A DNA stretch of 47,207 bases from Thermoplasmatota archaeon (GTDB lineage Archaea; Thermoplasmatota; Thermoplasmata; Thermoplasmatales; Thermoplasmataceae), in assembly GCA_023379435.1 (NCBI GenBank), contig JAMCUH010000056.1, forward strand, positions 1 to 47,207, given 5' to 3'. Shown here in pieces: positions 36,668 through 44,733 of this stretch (position 1 is the first letter of the stretch; each line of letters opens with the position of its first letter). Both the position numbers and the translations under genes were made by a program. The notes below the pieces were generated by a model. That model was given only the letters and a program-made list of their open reading frames with translations, did no database searches and was not told the origin of the DNA.

Positions 36668-38401
36668 TCAAAATATTTTCACAGAGTAGAATATGATATC
36701 TGAAATGGATATGGACAGGAAAAGGCACAGGAATACAGTTAATACAATGCCATACTTCGCCCTCCTCACAGTTTTCGATACCTTGTTAAGCAGGTTCTGG
36801 AAGGATGACTCGTCACCCATACTTACCTTCACAGCAGAGGACCCAAATCCCATACTGCATGGGGAAACATCCTGTGATGCTTCGCTGACCGCTTTTTTCA
36901 TTAATTCAACAATCTCCTGAACGTTGTCCTTTTCACCGAGGGGGTTCATATCAAGTGTCCCGGCATTCACAAAATGATTGTCCGTTGTGAAGAATTCTAC
37001 CTCATCAACGTCCTTTATGGATGATCTGGCTGCGTTGATAACACTGTCAAGGATATTGTTTGAATCTGTGAGAATAAGTGCCTGTTTCTTCTGGCTGGTT
37101 TCAATAACAATGCACTGTATTCCCATTGGGCCAAGGGCTGATGAATTTCCCTCCACACGTGAATATCCTATCCTGGCTTCATCTTTTGGTACCATTCTAA
37201 AAAATTCCCTCTTTGCCGTTGAAACAATGCTTCCAAGGTTTTCCAATGGTTTTGCTCCATAGCTGAAGTGGGTCTGCGCATCTAAGACAGCAAAATCAGC
37301 CGCGCCCATTTTCTTCATTTCGGATATCATTTTCATCCCCTCGGATAGGGAAACATCGTCAAATTTTTCCCTTTCCGGTATCATCACGCCTATGCCGTAG
37401 TCGCCAAATCTGATGATGCCAAGTGTATGCTTTCCTGCCCTGAGCTTGCGGAATCTTGTTATTGTGGAAACATAATTAGAGTGCCGCATTGATTCTCTTA
37501 CAGCATGTGAAATTCGCTCAATATCCTCTTCCCTGACGCTATTGTTGCTGTTGGTAGTTGTGGTGTGGAACACCATGAGATCGGATCCAATATCATCCAG
37601 CAGGCTCTGAAGCTTGTAGGGAAGGTTACTTGTTCCAACTGATCCGAACGGTCCGGGATGCACGTACGGGAAAACCAGCACCACCTTCCTTTTTCCATTT
37701 ATGTCCTTAATGTCAATGGTCTGGACAATGGTCTCTTTCTCCTTGTTATATATGGATTTAAGGAATGAATAGGCATCATGCTCACTTCTGGATCCCGTGT
37801 TAAGGAGAAAGTTCATCACGGAAATTGGGCTCTGACCGAATTCCGTTGTGATGCTGTTTATATTCACAAAAGCGAAGAAATAACCACCCAGCAGAAAGAT
37901 CATGGAGGTGCCGACGAAAAGGAGAATTGGTTCTAAGGGAGAATGCGTCAAAATAAGTCCTGGAAAAAGTGCAAGTGTATAAATGAGGGATGGGACGAAA
38001 ATTCTACGTATTGATTCCGAAATGTAGAGAAAGAAAATCATGGAACGCAGCATTGCAGCGACAGAGAAGCTCAATACAATGTCGAAAAAGATGTTGAGAT
38101 ACCCTGGGAAGGCGGCCTTCAGAATTATGAAATATACATTGCATATGAAAAATGAGAGGAAATCAAGAAAATTGATCCTTCTTCTTGGAAAGGTTTTGGT
38201 CATTAACTTGAACATGGAGTAATCGATGGCAAAGGTGATAAGCAGGGGAAGAACGAATAAAAATGACAGGTATGACAGATTTTTCAAAATTATATAATCC
38301 AGGACAAGAAGAACTACAGATGGTATTATGTATGTTCTTAGCTTCGGAGCTCTTTTCAAAAACCTCGAAAGATCAGCGAATGTGAAGGATGATGATTGCA
38401 A
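36668..38401 (-). CDS. DUF2070 family membrane protein
   Basis: A 577-residue archaeal DUF2070 protein of unknown function. About seven N-terminal membrane helices (roughly 20-195) precede a cytosolic domain (about 215-555) with the family motif FPYVHPGPFGSVGTSNLPYKL. This resembles a metal- or phosphate-binding enzyme site, with FHTTTTNSNN and LDAQTHFSYGA also supplying His/Asp/Asn. A last hydrophobic helix (about 555-572) ends the protein. The start is TTG 38401; an upstream ATG closes at once, and a TATA box about 29 nt upstream fits a leaderless mRNA. It is downstream of the NAD-kinase-like gene by 39 nt but has its own promoter. Confidence 0.85.
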   Translation of the reverse strand: MQSSSFTFADLSRFLKRAPKLRTYIIPSVVLLVLDYIILKNLSYLSFLFVLPLLITFAIDYSMFKLMTKTFPRRRINFLDFLSFFICNVYFIILKAAFPGYLNIFFDIVLSFSVAAMLRSMIFFLYISESIRRIFVPSLIYTLALFPGLILTHSPLEPILLFVGTSMIFLLGGYFFAFVNINSITTEFGQSPISVMNFLLNTGSRSEHDAYSFLKSIYNKEKETIVQTIDIKDINGKRKVVLVFPYVHPGPFGSVGTSNLPYKLQSLLDDIGSDLMVFHTTTTNSNNSVREEDIERISHAVRESMRHSNYVSTITRFRKLRAGKHTLGIIRFGDYGIGVMIPEREKFDDVSLSEGMKMISEMKKMGAADFAVLDAQTHFSYGAKPLENLGSIVSTAKREFFRMVPKDEARIGYSRVEGNSSALGPMGIQCIVIETSQKKQALILTDSNNILDSVINAARSSIKDVDEVEFFTTDNHFVNAGTLDMNPLGEKDNVQEIVELMKKAVSEASQDVSPCSMGFGSSAVKVSMGDESSFQNLLNKVSKTVRRAKYGIVLTVFLCLFLSISISDIIFYSVKIF

Positions 38402-38440: not shown

Positions 38441-39505
38441 CTACCCATGCAGCACAGGTACAACTTTGAACCTCCCGTATCCATAGAGAATCTTCAAATA
38501 CGCAATGGAAGGGAATCCGTACTGTATTACAACATGAGCAAGATGAGATAGTTTCTCCATGGATGAGATTACCAGCAGATCCTGATCACTTATGCTGGAA
38601 AGTGTTTTCTCGCTCAGCTGCCTGTTTCCTCTTCCGATGAGAATCCCCTGGCCGCCAATTGGTGTAAGAATCAGTTTGCACCTGTGTCTCGCCGTGTAAT
38701 CCTCCAGCACCTCCAGGGAAGCATTGGAAACAATCAGCTTGCCACCGCTGATAATATCCACCCCGTATACTGGCGTGGATATGTCCATCAGGCTCGTAAC
38801 CATCTTGCATGTTGAGCCCGGGCCGATGAGGTAACTCAGCGATGGATCCATCCTTTCCTGGAGATATTCAATCGCCCCTGAAATGGATGGGTCACTATAC
38901 TCCCTCTTCGACTCAAGTATTACGTCTTCGGATGCTGGGACAAGCAATCTTCCTTTAACCCTTATGTTCTGCACCCCGTTTAGCAGAGATGGTTCATCGG
39001 CATCCACAACATCCTCCATTGATGCCCCAATACTGCCCTCAACGAAAAGCTGGAGTGTTCTTAACGCCCTCTGAGGCGATATCGCAAAGACTGCACTGTG
39101 CATCTTTACACCGGTTGGAATTCCAAGAACAGGAATGTTCCCGTCTATAACAGATGATATGTCGGCAGCTGTTCCGTCTCCGCCAAAAAATATGATAATA
39201 TCCACTGAAAGCGAGGATACTATTCTGATGAAATTCAGCGTGTCTTCTCTGTAAGTGATTTCTGCGTCATGATACACGGTGCTGAACTCACTAATCCCTG
39301 CCTCCCTGAGTTCACGCCCACCCATGAAGTTCTCCGAGGATATGATATCAAGATCCATGCCCCTGAGGGCAGATAGGAAATCTATTGCTGTTCTTACTGT
39401 TGTAGACTCCAGGGGATCATATTTCTCTATACTGTCCGATCCAGGCATGTTAATTTTGATTCCGTATCCGGATTTCGGATTGACAAGAACAGCCACAGTT
39501 TTCAT
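38441..39505 (-). CDS. ATP-NAD kinase-like protein (COG3199)
   Basis: A 354-residue protein of the archaeal COG3199 branch of the NAD/diacylglycerol kinase superfamily. VAVLVNPKSGYG opens the fold and IIFFGGDGTAADISSVI (about 103-119) is the GGDGT nucleotide-binding motif, with VLGIPTGVKMHSAVF next. The C-terminal part (LIGPGSTCKMVTSL, TPIGGQGILIGRGNRQLS) is typical of this group and not of canonical NadK. Members may phosphorylate NAD or another small molecule; the substrate here is unknown. The ATG is 3 nt after the stop of the M50-like gene, so it is the last gene of alaS-M50-kinase. Confidence 0.86.
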   Translation of the reverse strand: MKTVAVLVNPKSGYGIKINMPGSDSIEKYDPLESTTVRTAIDFLSALRGMDLDIISSENFMGGRELREAGISEFSTVYHDAEITYREDTLNFIRIVSSLSVDIIIFFGGDGTAADISSVIDGNIPVLGIPTGVKMHSAVFAISPQRALRTLQLFVEGSIGASMEDVVDADEPSLLNGVQNIRVKGRLLVPASEDVILESKREYSDPSISGAIEYLQERMDPSLSYLIGPGSTCKMVTSLMDISTPVYGVDIISGGKLIVSNASLEVLEDYTARHRCKLILTPIGGQGILIGRGNRQLSEKTLSSISDQDLLVISSMEKLSHLAHVVIQYGFPSIAYLKILYGYGRFKVVPVLHG

Positions 39506-39508
39506 GCT

Positions 39509-41233
39509 TTAATTATCACCAACGCTGACATAGGCCACAGCCGCAGTGTAAGAACTGTCCACAAGTGCAATTATCCATTTTGATGTTGGGTCGTGTGGTA
39601 TAAGAGTAATGGAAAATGTCTGGCCAGGGTTAATCGCAAAGGGCGTAGTGAATCCCCAGTAACCGTTTTCATTGAATGTTATATTTCCAAAAATGATGGA
39701 GTAGCTGAAATTTAGAGGTGCATAGGAGAGAAGATGAAAATCCTGCTTTCCGCTGGGTGGAACAAAATAGGTGAATTTTAATGTTGCAGACTGATTGGCA
39801 GCCAGGTTCATGGTCAGCGGGATGTGACTGTCGAATGACATTTCGGTCGCAAGATTCACAACCGTAATTGTCAGTGGAACAGAGCATTTGCTTATTCCGG
39901 AATATACATCAAGCGTGTAATTATAAGAACCTGCGACCTCTCTTGAAGGCAGAGGTATGGATACCATGTAGCTTTGGGACTGCCTTGGTGAAACACTACC
40001 ACCTGGCCCAAGAACAGATAGGGGGACAGACGGAGAAATGGTGAACGAAGGTGTGACCGGCGTTGTTCCCATGTTGAGCAAGGTCACATTGAAGTATGCG
40101 TAACCTGATGTTCCATTGACTACCAGTGAGTTCTGATCTGAAGCATGCACCTGTATGTCACTGGGAATGATGTGATATGGCGTTGGCACGATACTTACAA
40201 GAAAAATGAAAAGAACTATGCCCGTAAGAATCCTGGCACCGTTGGAAAGCCTGGATGTTGTGAGCATCGGTTCTGGGCCCTTAATTCCAACGAATAAAAC
40301 AAAGATCAGAATTATAAGCCAGCTCGGGTAATATATGGATATGCCGAAAAACGCCACTACAGCCCCGTAGGATATATATTTGGAAAAATTACCGGCCAGT
40401 GCCTTGGAGATAAGGCCACCGTCAAGAAACCCCATGGGAAATGCATTCAGAGCATTAATGACTATGCCAATCCATCCCGCATACTGTATCAGATTCAATG
40501 TTACAGAGACGGATGTAATTTTGCTGAAGAGAAGAGAATATGTGAGGGGGAGGCTAACGCTCCTGAAGGAAGAATTAACGGGAGCAACCAGAGTGCTCCC
40601 GCCCAGATGCAGTTGGGATCCTATAACTATGACCATCAGGGATGAAACAAATCCAGCAATAAGGGGAAAAATGCCGGCCTGGAACATTGATCTTCTTGAC
40701 GGATATGGTTCATCCTGGCTTCCTATGGACCCAAGAATTCCCATCCCCAACGGAAGTGGATCGGGAATAAGGATTGGAAGACTGTAATTCATACCGTTGA
40801 GCCTGTGTGCCATATATCTTCCAAACTCCCTGCTGAGTATGATGAAGCCTATGGGGATCATAAAGAAAAGGAAGACGTCAGAGAAAACAACTACCGGTGG
40901 AACACCTGCTGAATATGACACCTCATATGAGTAGCCTGTATAGAGAACGGAACCGATGGTTATTGCCACAAGTATGTATTTAATATGGGAAGAATAAGGG
41001 GATTTCTCGCCTTTCTTCATTATGTATATCCTGTTACTGTTGGCAGGACCGGTGAATGCAATGTAGCCGAGCCGGGATATCCTCTTTATCAGAATTGAGA
41101 AATCCTCCTCATCATAAGTGGAAAAATCCGGTACATCGATAATTATCTTTTCCCCTTCGCGGTCGACGACGTCGTACCTGTAAACGGATGATACTATTGC
41201 CAGAACACGATCCTGCTCGTCAGGTTTGTGCAT
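39509..41233 (-). CDS. M50/site-2-protease-like membrane protein with RExxR motif
   Basis: A 574-residue membrane protein of the M50 site-2-protease family. A cytosolic N-terminal domain (1-82) is followed by about seven hydrophobic segments (84-350). In TM2 the zinc motif HExxH is replaced by R135-E-F-G-R139, in the otherwise normal context ILSREFGRYMAHR. The second motif, NALNAFPMGFLDGG (260-273), keeps N260 and D271. The PLPLGMGILGSIG loop and FPLIAG also match the family. A C-terminal extracytoplasmic part (about 360-574) is beta-rich and Ser/Thr-rich, like CARDB/Ig-type repeats. With both zinc His lost it is probably a pseudoprotease. It lies 10 nt after alaS. Confidence 0.85.
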   Translation of the reverse strand: MHKPDEQDRVLAIVSSVYRYDVVDREGEKIIIDVPDFSTYDEEDFSILIKRISRLGYIAFTGPANSNRIYIMKKGEKSPYSSHIKYILVAITIGSVLYTGYSYEVSYSAGVPPVVVFSDVFLFFMIPIGFIILSREFGRYMAHRLNGMNYSLPILIPDPLPLGMGILGSIGSQDEPYPSRRSMFQAGIFPLIAGFVSSLMVIVIGSQLHLGGSTLVAPVNSSFRSVSLPLTYSLLFSKITSVSVTLNLIQYAGWIGIVINALNAFPMGFLDGGLISKALAGNFSKYISYGAVVAFFGISIYYPSWLIILIFVLFVGIKGPEPMLTTSRLSNGARILTGIVLFIFLVSIVPTPYHIIPSDIQVHASDQNSLVVNGTSGYAYFNVTLLNMGTTPVTPSFTISPSVPLSVLGPGGSVSPRQSQSYMVSIPLPSREVAGSYNYTLDVYSGISKCSVPLTITVVNLATEMSFDSHIPLTMNLAANQSATLKFTYFVPPSGKQDFHLLSYAPLNFSYSIIFGNITFNENGYWGFTTPFAINPGQTFSITLIPHDPTSKWIIALVDSSYTAAVAYVSVGDN

Positions 41234-41243
41234 TTAGTATATA

Positions 41244-43907
41244 TCATAACAAATATTTTCTTATTAAGCTTTCATCAAGTATTCCAGAAAATCTTGAGGA
41301 ACTGAATCTCTCACCCAGCCTGGCATCATGGGGAACGTTGTTATTCAGAAGGGATTTCAGGATATCATCAGACCTGGGCGAACCCTTTGACACCACATAC
41401 ATGAGGCCTGCCTTCTCATTCAGGATAACGGAAAAGAGAGTGCCAGTCGAAGCAAGACTTCCTATGAGAAGCTTCAAATCATCATCGTCTCCCTGGAAAT
41501 CCACCATCAAGGCATCGCCATTTTTACCTTTAATTCTCCTTGACGCTGACATAATCTGCCTTATCCGCTGTTTTCTGACGTCCTCAACCTTCTTTCTCGT
41601 TTCAAGCAATTCCTTCTGCATTGCCTCTACCTTTTCAGGTACGGAAATTGCATCTGCCCTTGTGATCCTTGTGAGTTTGTCCATTGCAGCCTGCATTCCA
41701 GACACGTACCTAAGGAGGGCAGGCCCGGCAACAAATGTTATCCTCTGCACGTTCTCCTGGATGGTATCGCAGGAAAGTATCTTTATCATCCCTATGGGCC
41801 CAGTGGAAGAGAGATGCGTTCCGCCACAACCCTCAGCATCAATTCCATCTATTTCAACAACCCTCAGCCTTCCATTCACAGGAACACCACCCTGGAAAAG
41901 CCTGAACCCGAATTTATCCAGCGCATGATTCCACTCCATGAATCTTGCTGTGATTCGCCTGTTTTCCTGTATAATCTCAAGGCACCTTTCCTCCACCTTC
42001 CTAATCTCATTGTAATCAAGCCTTCCGAAGTGTGATATATCTATCCTGGATGAATCAATTCCTTTCTGGACGCCTATCTGCCATACGTGGTCTCCAAGAA
42101 CCTCCCTGAGAACTGCAAGAATGAGATGTGTGGCAGAATGATGGATCATAAGCTGCCATCTTCTGGCATAATCTATATGACCCTGAACCCTCCACTTCTC
42201 TTCAAGCCTTCCGTCAACATGATGGACTATGGTATCCCTGATCTTTTCCACATAGGTCACAGGAAATATCATGCCACCTCTCTGCAGTGTCCCGAGATCA
42301 CATGGCTGTCCACCGCCCTCAGGATAAAAGGCAGTCTGGTTCAACACAACTTTACCGTCCCTGCTGTACATCACTATTCCTGTAAAATCCCTTATCTTTG
42401 TATCGTCATAATAGAGTGGCCTGGTATGTATTTCTGGTATGTTCTCCCTTGAAGAGCGTTTAATGGTTGTAGAGTGCATGGCAGATATCCTGCTCCGAAA
42501 ATCTTCAGCAACGTCAATCCTTATGCCTGTAAGATCTTCATTTATTCTTGCTGCAGTATCAGGATCTATGCCGTTGGAATCGTAGAGCATCAGAAGGTCC
42601 TTCTGATTAAGTTTTCCCTTACGTTCTATGAGCCTGCCAATGATTCTTCTTCCCCTTTCATTGATCTCCTGATATTTTTTCAGTTCATCGCCAATGATTC
42701 TGTTTATGAATTCTCTATCAGTGTTGGGAAGTATACTTGAAAACTCCTTTGCCTCCATGTCAAGAATATCGAATATAATGTGCTCACCGTTTAATGCCTT
42801 CAAGCTCTTGATTATCCTCCTGATGAGAAATCTCAGCACATATCCAACCTTGACGTTTGAAGGGAGCACTTTTTCATTCAGAAGAAGGAGAACAGTCTTG
42901 ACATGATCCACCACTATGGAAATATTCCTGTATGTTTCCAGCGATTTCCATATTTCAGACTGATCTGATTCACCATCAGTTGACAGGGAAACAACAGCAG
43001 AGTTAAGTGCAGACTGCCCGTAATCCTGGTGCTCTGATGATATAATGCTGTTCAGTGATCTTATTCTATCTGACGGCTCCTTGAGCCCGAGCCTTGTATA
43101 AATGAAATTTATCGGCCTCTCGAAAACGGTATCGTAAATGGTTGGCGTTCCGGTTGTTAACCAGGCAAGTCTTTCAAGCCCGTATCCGGTGTCAATGATT
43201 GTTCTGTCCATCCTTGAATAGCGAAGGCCGTCAATTTCGAATTCTCCCTCAGGGTCCTCCTTCATGTCCATGAAGACAAGGGTTGCGACTTCAAGTCCCC
43301 TGACAAGAACCTCAACAGCATTTCCACCGTTTCCTCCACCTGACCAGGGTTTTTCCTTGAATGTTATTATATCACCATTAACGCCCAGGGATTCCGTTAG
43401 AAAACTGTAACAGTATGATAATGTCTCATCCTTCCAGTATACGTAATGACCCGGTTTGTTGAACGCATCATGGCACATCATTTCAAAGCTCGTAAGATGC
43501 CTGCCTGTCATACCCACAAGGTCAACATCCAGCATCCTGATGCATGGCTGTGACATCACCAGGGGGTTTTGTGGGGGTTCTGCATATCCACCGGTAACAT
43601 GTGGCTGGAAGTCATATATGGATGCATTAACAAGCAGAACGTCTTCTCGCCACCTGGGTACTACCGGATAGGCATTCACAAACCCGTGGCTCCCCCTGAA
43701 ATAATCTATGAAGCTCTCCCTCATCTCGTCCACGGTTTTACGCTTAAGATCTGAAGAGCCTATGAATGAATAGGGATCACATGGGGGGTCGCCACATGTC
43801 CTTCTTTCCGGGTCCCTCGTCCAGTATGAAGAGCCGCATTTTTCACATATTTTCCTCTCAAAACTATTGACAGAAAAAAAATCTTTCATGCCAGCAGTCT
43901 CCTTCAT
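41244..43907 (-). CDS. alaS: Alanyl-tRNA synthetase
   Basis: An 887-residue archaeal-type AlaRS. It has the archaeal N-terminal zinc-like segment KICEKCGSSYWTRDPERRTC and the class II core with RWREDVLLVNASIYDFQP and YGLERLAWLTTG. The editing domain carries HHSATHL (HxxxH) and EGCGGTHL (CxxxH), and a C-terminal coiled and DHHA1-like part follows (GTLFSVILNEKAGLMYVVSKG). All catalytic and editing residues look intact. The start is ATG 43907 or, with a GAAGGAG ahead of it, ATG 43889. It is followed by the M50-like and kinase-like genes at 10 and 3 nt. Confidence 0.96.
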   Translation of the reverse strand: MKETAGMKDFFSVNSFERKICEKCGSSYWTRDPERRTCGDPPCDPYSFIGSSDLKRKTVDEMRESFIDYFRGSHGFVNAYPVVPRWREDVLLVNASIYDFQPHVTGGYAEPPQNPLVMSQPCIRMLDVDLVGMTGRHLTSFEMMCHDAFNKPGHYVYWKDETLSYCYSFLTESLGVNGDIITFKEKPWSGGGNGGNAVEVLVRGLEVATLVFMDMKEDPEGEFEIDGLRYSRMDRTIIDTGYGLERLAWLTTGTPTIYDTVFERPINFIYTRLGLKEPSDRIRSLNSIISSEHQDYGQSALNSAVVSLSTDGESDQSEIWKSLETYRNISIVVDHVKTVLLLLNEKVLPSNVKVGYVLRFLIRRIIKSLKALNGEHIIFDILDMEAKEFSSILPNTDREFINRIIGDELKKYQEINERGRRIIGRLIERKGKLNQKDLLMLYDSNGIDPDTAARINEDLTGIRIDVAEDFRSRISAMHSTTIKRSSRENIPEIHTRPLYYDDTKIRDFTGIVMYSRDGKVVLNQTAFYPEGGGQPCDLGTLQRGGMIFPVTYVEKIRDTIVHHVDGRLEEKWRVQGHIDYARRWQLMIHHSATHLILAVLREVLGDHVWQIGVQKGIDSSRIDISHFGRLDYNEIRKVEERCLEIIQENRRITARFMEWNHALDKFGFRLFQGGVPVNGRLRVVEIDGIDAEGCGGTHLSSTGPIGMIKILSCDTIQENVQRITFVAGPALLRYVSGMQAAMDKLTRITRADAISVPEKVEAMQKELLETRKKVEDVRKQRIRQIMSASRRIKGKNGDALMVDFQGDDDDLKLLIGSLASTGTLFSVILNEKAGLMYVVSKGSPRSDDILKSLLNNNVPHDARLGERFSSSRFSGILDESLIRKYLL

Positions 43908-44082: not shown

Positions 44083-44733
44083 TCATACCTTTCTCCTTTT
44101 CAGATCCAGAAGATAGTTGGATCTGTGCAGCGGATTCAAATCAAATTTTCTGACAAGGTCAAAATTCAGAATGTTGTTTACTGAATCCCTTATCTTAATC
44201 TGCTCACTCCCTCCGGAAATCAGGGATCTTGCCTTGAGTACCAGGAGCGCGTACTTTGCCTCAGGGAATGCTTCCCCATTGATGTTAAAAATCCTTACCT
44301 GATCAGGCTGGGATATATCCTGATATATGAGATCAGCGGAATCAACGAGAAACCTGTACCTTTCGGGAAAACCTGCATCCTCAAGTATTGGTATGATGTT
44401 CTTCCTCTTTTCTGAAAGGCGAACCAGCTTAACGAAGGGGTCATACGACATTTCGACCGCATAAACGTATCCTCCAGGAACCAGATCAGATACATAGCTC
44501 ACAGTTGTCCCCGAGGATGCGCCCAGATAGAGGACGGAAGAATCTTCAGTAAGGTGCAGCTTTAACCCCTTGAGCAGGGCAAAACCGAGCTTGCTTCTCT
44601 CAGTGACCCATTCCCTCAGATGAGCGTGATCCTTCCTTGTGATCTTTTCACCGAATACTGGTTCTGGATAATCGGTAACAGTGAAAATGCCACTCTGGGA
44701 AAAGACGAGTCTGTGATTCCCTGGCCCCTGCAT
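44083..44733 (-). CDS. flpA: Fibrillarin-like rRNA/tRNA 2'-O-methyltransferase
   Basis: A 216-residue archaeal fibrillarin, the methyltransferase of C/D-box RNPs. It has REWVTERSKLGFALLKGL, SAM motif VLYLGASSGTTVSYVSDLV, YAVEMSYDPF, IPILEDAGFPERYRFL, DLIYQDISQPDQ and LLVLKARSL with the catalytic Lys. Length is close to the family norm (about 225). The start has a TTTATAAC box 24 nt upstream, so it is leaderless. Its usual partner nop5 is not adjacent. The region 43908-44082 between it and alaS contains no gene I can support. Confidence 0.94.
   Translation of the reverse strand: MQGPGNHRLVFSQSGIFTVTDYPEPVFGEKITRKDHAHLREWVTERSKLGFALLKGLKLHLTEDSSVLYLGASSGTTVSYVSDLVPGGYVYAVEMSYDPFVKLVRLSEKRKNIIPILEDAGFPERYRFLVDSADLIYQDISQPDQVRIFNINGEAFPEAKYALLVLKARSLISGGSEQIKIRDSVNNILNFDLVRKFDLNPLHRSNYLLDLKRRKV

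Follow-up and report, generated by a model that had tools for sequence, protein, structure and literature searches.

A selectively maintained site-2 protease homologue with a charge-swapped metal site, encoded next to alaS in a family of Thermoplasmatales archaea

The activity of SpoIVFB and other site-2 proteases (S2Ps) is held under the control of inhibitory membrane partner proteins, and to our knowledge none of the inhibitory partners of SpoIVFB-type S2Ps is a dead S2P paralogue. Dead intramembrane proteases have been well studied in rhomboids, and for S2Ps a limited search of the literature gave only EGY3 of plants. EGY3 is a chloroplast S2P pseudoprotease without HExxH, described as occurring in plants only and as the sole pseudoenzyme of the protease family (PMC9355673), and it stabilizes other proteins while being conserved beside the active paralogues EGY1 and EGY2 (PMC10978774; PMC9355673). 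The iRhoms are reported to be dead intramembrane proteases that are under selection and regulate intramembrane-protease signalling (PMC3149277).

Here we describe an S2P homologue encoded on a 47,207-nt stretch of DNA from a Thermoplasmatota archaeon (the whole analysed stretch, below called the window), which resembles EGY3 in being conserved without HExxH beside active paralogues. It differs from EGY3 in having a fixed Arg/Lys pair in place of His, in carrying an Ig-like ectodomain and in sitting at the original locus of what was probably a gene duplication in archaea; as its clade is nested among active Thermoplasmatales copies, an origin independent of EGY3 is likely. With the active EGY-type S2Ps of Thermoplasmatales it shares a homologous core and, with their long forms, also the architecture and the alaS neighbour, but those proteins have intact HExxH and LDGGH motifs and their short form lacks the ectodomain. 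The first-pass annotation had proposed an inactive S2P analogous to the iRhoms; the first half of that proposal is upheld by the findings below, whereas EGY3 is the closer parallel, since iRhoms are eukaryotic proteins of the rhomboid serine-protease fold and the present protein, an M50 homologue and not a rhomboid, resembles them in mode only. No earlier report of an archaeal S2P pseudoprotease was found in a search of the open-access literature.

The open reading frame, its strand, length and codons were as first annotated, with RExxR in place of HExxH (Table 1). Its product matched PF02163 at E=3.5e-6 and 26.9 bits, with the Pfam cut-off at 27.2, and the other long copies of the window's taxonomic family scored 25–27 bits; with scores barely below the cut-off, this long S2P homologue is likely to be overlooked by routine annotation. 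Homology to M50/site-2 proteases over the membrane core was seen both with PF02163 and with a core profile, the latter reaching E ≤ 1e-3 with every one of the 24 S2Ps from the order, the 23 from the class and the 39 from the outgroup. As to the metal site, R135-E136-x-x-R139 stands where an active M50 protease has HExxH, and the Asp of LDG, the third ligand, is kept as D271. The second motif of the protein is NAFPMGFLDGGL, the codons from N263 to L274 being AAT GCA TTT CCC ATG GGG TTT CTT GAC GGT GGC CTT, and the loss of a third His, that of LDGGH at position 274, had been overlooked in the first-pass annotation. R135 and R139 aligned exactly with both His residues of the intact short paralogues (50 sequences) and with those of order- and class-level homologues. 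A true HExxH elsewhere in the 574-residue protein, which would have refuted the first-pass annotation, was not present in the alignment.

Table 1. Features of the S2P homologue and its neighbours in the window.
Feature	Position	Strand	Basis
Apparently inactive S2P homologue CDS, 574 aa	39509..41233	-	ORF reading and Pfam PF02163
R135 (AGG), at first zinc His position	40829..40831	-	Codon read; R 72/74, K 2/74 orthologues
E136 (GAG), catalytic-position Glu kept	40826..40828	-	74/74 orthologues
R139 (AGA), at second zinc His position	40817..40819	-	Codon read; K 43/74, R 31/74
D271 of LDGG, metal-ligand position kept	40421..40423	-	74/74 orthologues
L274, at His position of LDGGH	40412..40414	-	L/I/Y/V/M/S/F in long clade; H in 50/50 short copies
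N-terminal alpha/beta domain, residues 1–80, probably cytosolic	40994..41233	-	AlphaFold2; N-terminal profile, which many active homologues match
S2P-type membrane core, residues 81–351	40181..40993	-	AlphaFold2 helices; core profile
C-terminal ectodomain, residues 352–574, two Ig-like beta domains, N-x-S/T-rich	39512..40180	-	AlphaFold2, Foldseek, sequons
alaS, upstream, 10-nt gap, ancestral neighbour	41244..43907	-	TIGR03683, 962 bits; adjacency across family and order
NAD-kinase/DAGK-like gene, downstream, divergent, GGDGT motif	38441..39505	-	Adjoins the S2P homologue in 27/36 loci of the family
DUF2070 membrane protein, next downstream	36668..38401	-	Profile match and neighbourhood comparison

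The family was covered by 77 genomes from 19 genera, with Thermoplasma sp., E-plasma and Thermogymnomonas acidicola as named members in an independent collection, and the long copy was present in 76 of them, the one genome lacking it (G020) being 79% complete. A degenerate DNA pattern for RExxK, tried as a search across the phylum, was rejected as far too unspecific. All 74 long copies that were full-length with a readable motif had [R/K]-E-x-x-[R/K], none had His at position 274, and E136 and D271 were invariant throughout, in agreement with the annotated retention of the Glu and the LDGG region. The 50 intact short copies all had H, E, H, D and H at positions 135, 136, 139, 271 and 274. In one genome (L055/L129) the motif stretch reads as N (X) and its state is unreadable. 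In Thermogymnomonas acidicola JCM 13583 (L034/L128) the long gene is split into frames of 364 and 108 residues and the short copy is apparently broken too; with that assembly rated about 50% complete, assembly errors are likely behind the split. Two genomes, G027 (L015, L099) and G218 (L233, L264), each carry the long gene twice, with RExxK and open frames.

The substitution pattern was that of a maintained protein. At position 135 the tree required at least 31 codon changes and a single residue change, from R to K; at position 139 there were four residue changes, all of them switches between R and K; and at position 274 there were nine changes, with seven residues sampled. Only 16 of the 574 positions were invariant, E136 and D271 being the only charged ones among them. 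Pairwise dN/dS of close orthologues was mostly 0.04–0.2 for the whole long protein and about 0.01–0.18 for its membrane core, usually below the ectodomain value, with 0.016–0.042 for the short copies. Judged by these patterns, the former zinc site of the long copy is under conservation rather than decay. The source genome is a draft only 68.7% complete, which could raise the suspicion of a sequencing error, a pseudogene or a misread frame, but this explanation is refuted by the same change in 74/74 orthologues, the low dN/dS and the open frames; a genome of the same genus, too, has R/K at both positions, so the Arg codons flagged as possible errors in the first-pass annotation are genuine.

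An S2P that has lost its catalytic motif while the protein as such is conserved has the features of a pseudoprotease, and the loss of three His residues in every full-length orthologue, the low dN/dS and the HExxH paralogue in the same genomes together strongly support that the long copy is an inactive S2P maintained by selection. That it should still be an active protease, with its metal differently arranged or with a mechanism not based on zinc, would accord with its retained site Glu and Asp, NxxP...LDGG region and fold; we consider this very improbable, as all three site-near His residues are absent from every full-length orthologue, with cationic or uncharged residues instead, and as a copy with the full HExxH persists alongside in the same genomes. 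The short copy is about 365 residues long, has HExxH and LDGGH, lacks the C-terminal domain and lies away from the alaS locus. All 35 genomes of the family that were at least 90% complete had at least two matching places, among which one long and one short copy were listed. The search for an active paralogue that the first-pass annotation had suggested did not detect the short EGY-type copy in the window's own 68.7% complete draft genome, from which no loss is claimed, and found it in a genome of the same genus (L088). The window's genome encodes two other M50 proteins, one of PDZ type with HELMH (L001) and one of 195 residues with HEFAH (L002). Behind the short active S2P (L088:744-1772 and L089:257-1351) come a NurA-like gene and, after it, an apparent HerA-type ATPase, as judged by eye.

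In the other families of the order (f2–f6) there is normally one copy, which is long (about 550–590 residues) and has HExxH and LDGGH, and HExxH was also present in 23/23 class-level copies read. The active copy adjoins alaS in 22 of 24 order loci from f3–f6, one exception (L072) being at a contig end, and in the window's family (f1) it is the long, inactive copy that adjoins alaS, at 35 of the 36 loci, with the one remaining locus again sitting at a contig end; no alaS was seen within the 1–1.5 kb flanks of short copies. By this adjacency, the inactive gene is the positional orthologue of the active protease. The annotated coupling to alaS was thus confirmed as an ancient adjacency, while that to the NAD-kinase-like gene is frequent and not universal; being inherited from active ancestors, the alaS coupling is uninformative about any new function of the inactive copy. 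A fibrillarin-like gene, recognized by eye at 44083–44733, lies upstream of alaS and is found near alaS in most related loci. A C-terminal profile of the inactive clade was matched at E ≤ 1e-3 by 12 of the 24 active copies from the order, the best match reaching 1e-12, and by none of the short copies, which indicates that the ectodomain is ancestral and was lost by the short copy.

In a tree built with the active-site columns excluded, the inactive long copies formed one monophyletic group and the short copies another (SH-aLRT 100 for each), both placed inside Thermoplasmatales. The free tree search separated the two clades of the family, and joining them gave lnL +12.5 with p-AU 0.75. Horizontal gain of the short copy is disfavoured, as the short clade lies within Thermoplasmatales and a single clade together with the long copies is preferred. 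The same two points favour a duplication, which on the stem of the family is the simplest reading of the tree, not a proven one, with long branches leaving some doubt.

An AlphaFold2 model of the long protein, based on 37 sequences, had a mean pLDDT of 85.5. It begins with an N-terminal alpha/beta domain, continues into a membrane core of helices, with R135 and R139 within the second long helix and D271 opening a later one, and ends in two beta domains. The beta part matched Ig-like proteins in Foldseek, so that the beta-rich extracytoplasmic C-terminal domain of the first-pass annotation takes shape as two Ig-like domains over about 220 residues. Foldseek with the whole model gave mainly Ig-like proteins and no S2P structures, and identity as an S2P fold is consequently based on sequence homology; a PDB sequence search with the family profile likewise gave no S2P, with weak Ig-like and chance matches only. 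The model of an active homologue, poor at its C-terminus, was uninformative. Residues 352–574 contained 10.1 N-x-S/T sequons against a shuffled expectation of 4.6, with no excess elsewhere in the protein, as would suit a domain that lies outside the cytoplasm and may be glycosylated.

With regard to what the conserved charges may do, R/K135 and R/K139 would replace the two positive charges of Zn2+, which the long copy should no longer be able to bind, and would find their partners within the membrane in E136 and D271, so that the charge cluster would stabilize the S2P fold without metal. The same R/K-E-R/K-D cluster might alternatively have become an intramembrane centre with a function of its own, for instance in relaying protons or ions or in a reaction that needs no metal, and be no fossil at all: the sole invariant charged residues are the Glu and Asp of the old catalytic site, and both His positions have kept fixed basic residues through heavy codon turnover. 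We regard this as improbable, since a buried salt-bridge network accounts for the same constraint and profile searches gave no transport or hydrolase signature.

The reading that we favour, with a probability of roughly 55%, is that a long S2P was duplicated and its labour divided, the short copy serving catalysis and the alaS-side copy acting as an ectodomain-bearing, non-catalytic receptor or adaptor. The single long S2P of Thermoplasmatales would have duplicated before the family diversified. The sequences show that the alaS-side copy lost both zinc His residues and that of LDGGH while keeping its two Ig-like domains, probably extracytoplasmic, and that the second copy, elsewhere in the genome, kept HExxH and LDGGH and lacks the C-terminal domain. 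Less certainly, the Ig-like ectodomain and the S2P groove might bind membrane clients, and the long copy might present these to the active short paralogue or withhold them, with sensing and cutting, formerly in one chain, now divided between two. The long copy is probably a non-catalytic receptor or adaptor; the membrane receptor or chaperone role of iRhom type suggested at first is plausible for it.

The divergence of long and short copies covaried beyond that of alaS (partial r 0.62–0.66, 0/500 permutations); with a single alaS fragment as the divergence proxy and a non-zero NAD-kinase-like control of 0.40, this covariation is a weak sign of a functional link. The long clade evolves at roughly double the rate of the short clade. 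Two roles with no relation to each other might also lie behind the partition into long and short copies. In that case the inactive long copy would act separately from the short S2P, for instance by stabilizing other proteins of the membrane or the cell surface through its Ig-like ectodomain, much as EGY3 non-proteolytically stabilizes other chloroplast proteins (PMC10978774; PMC9355673), and its metal-site residues would only hold the fold. A large and sequon-rich ectodomain and a core dN/dS pattern compatible with any structural function would suit such a role, which we hold to be less likely than the favoured one; the co-occurrence with the active paralogue in all near-complete genomes and the rate covariation hint at a link and are compatible with independence as well. 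Going beyond the favoured division of labour, one may tentatively envisage an obligate two-gene S2P, made of a catalytic short subunit and a dead ectodomain partner in which a fixed Arg/Lys-Glu-Arg/Lys-Asp tetrad electrostatically replaces zinc; such a two-gene split S2P, if true, would be the first case of an S2P pseudoprotease outside plants.

What appears new here is an archaeal S2P pseudoprotease, of a kind known from EGY3, in which the charges of the metal site have been swapped and labour is probably divided between paralogues. The whole family may be seen as a natural experiment, in which one ancestor gave two genes, one with the active site and one with the ectodomain, and with the cultured genera Thermoplasma and Thermogymnomonas among its members, the long copy is open to experiment.
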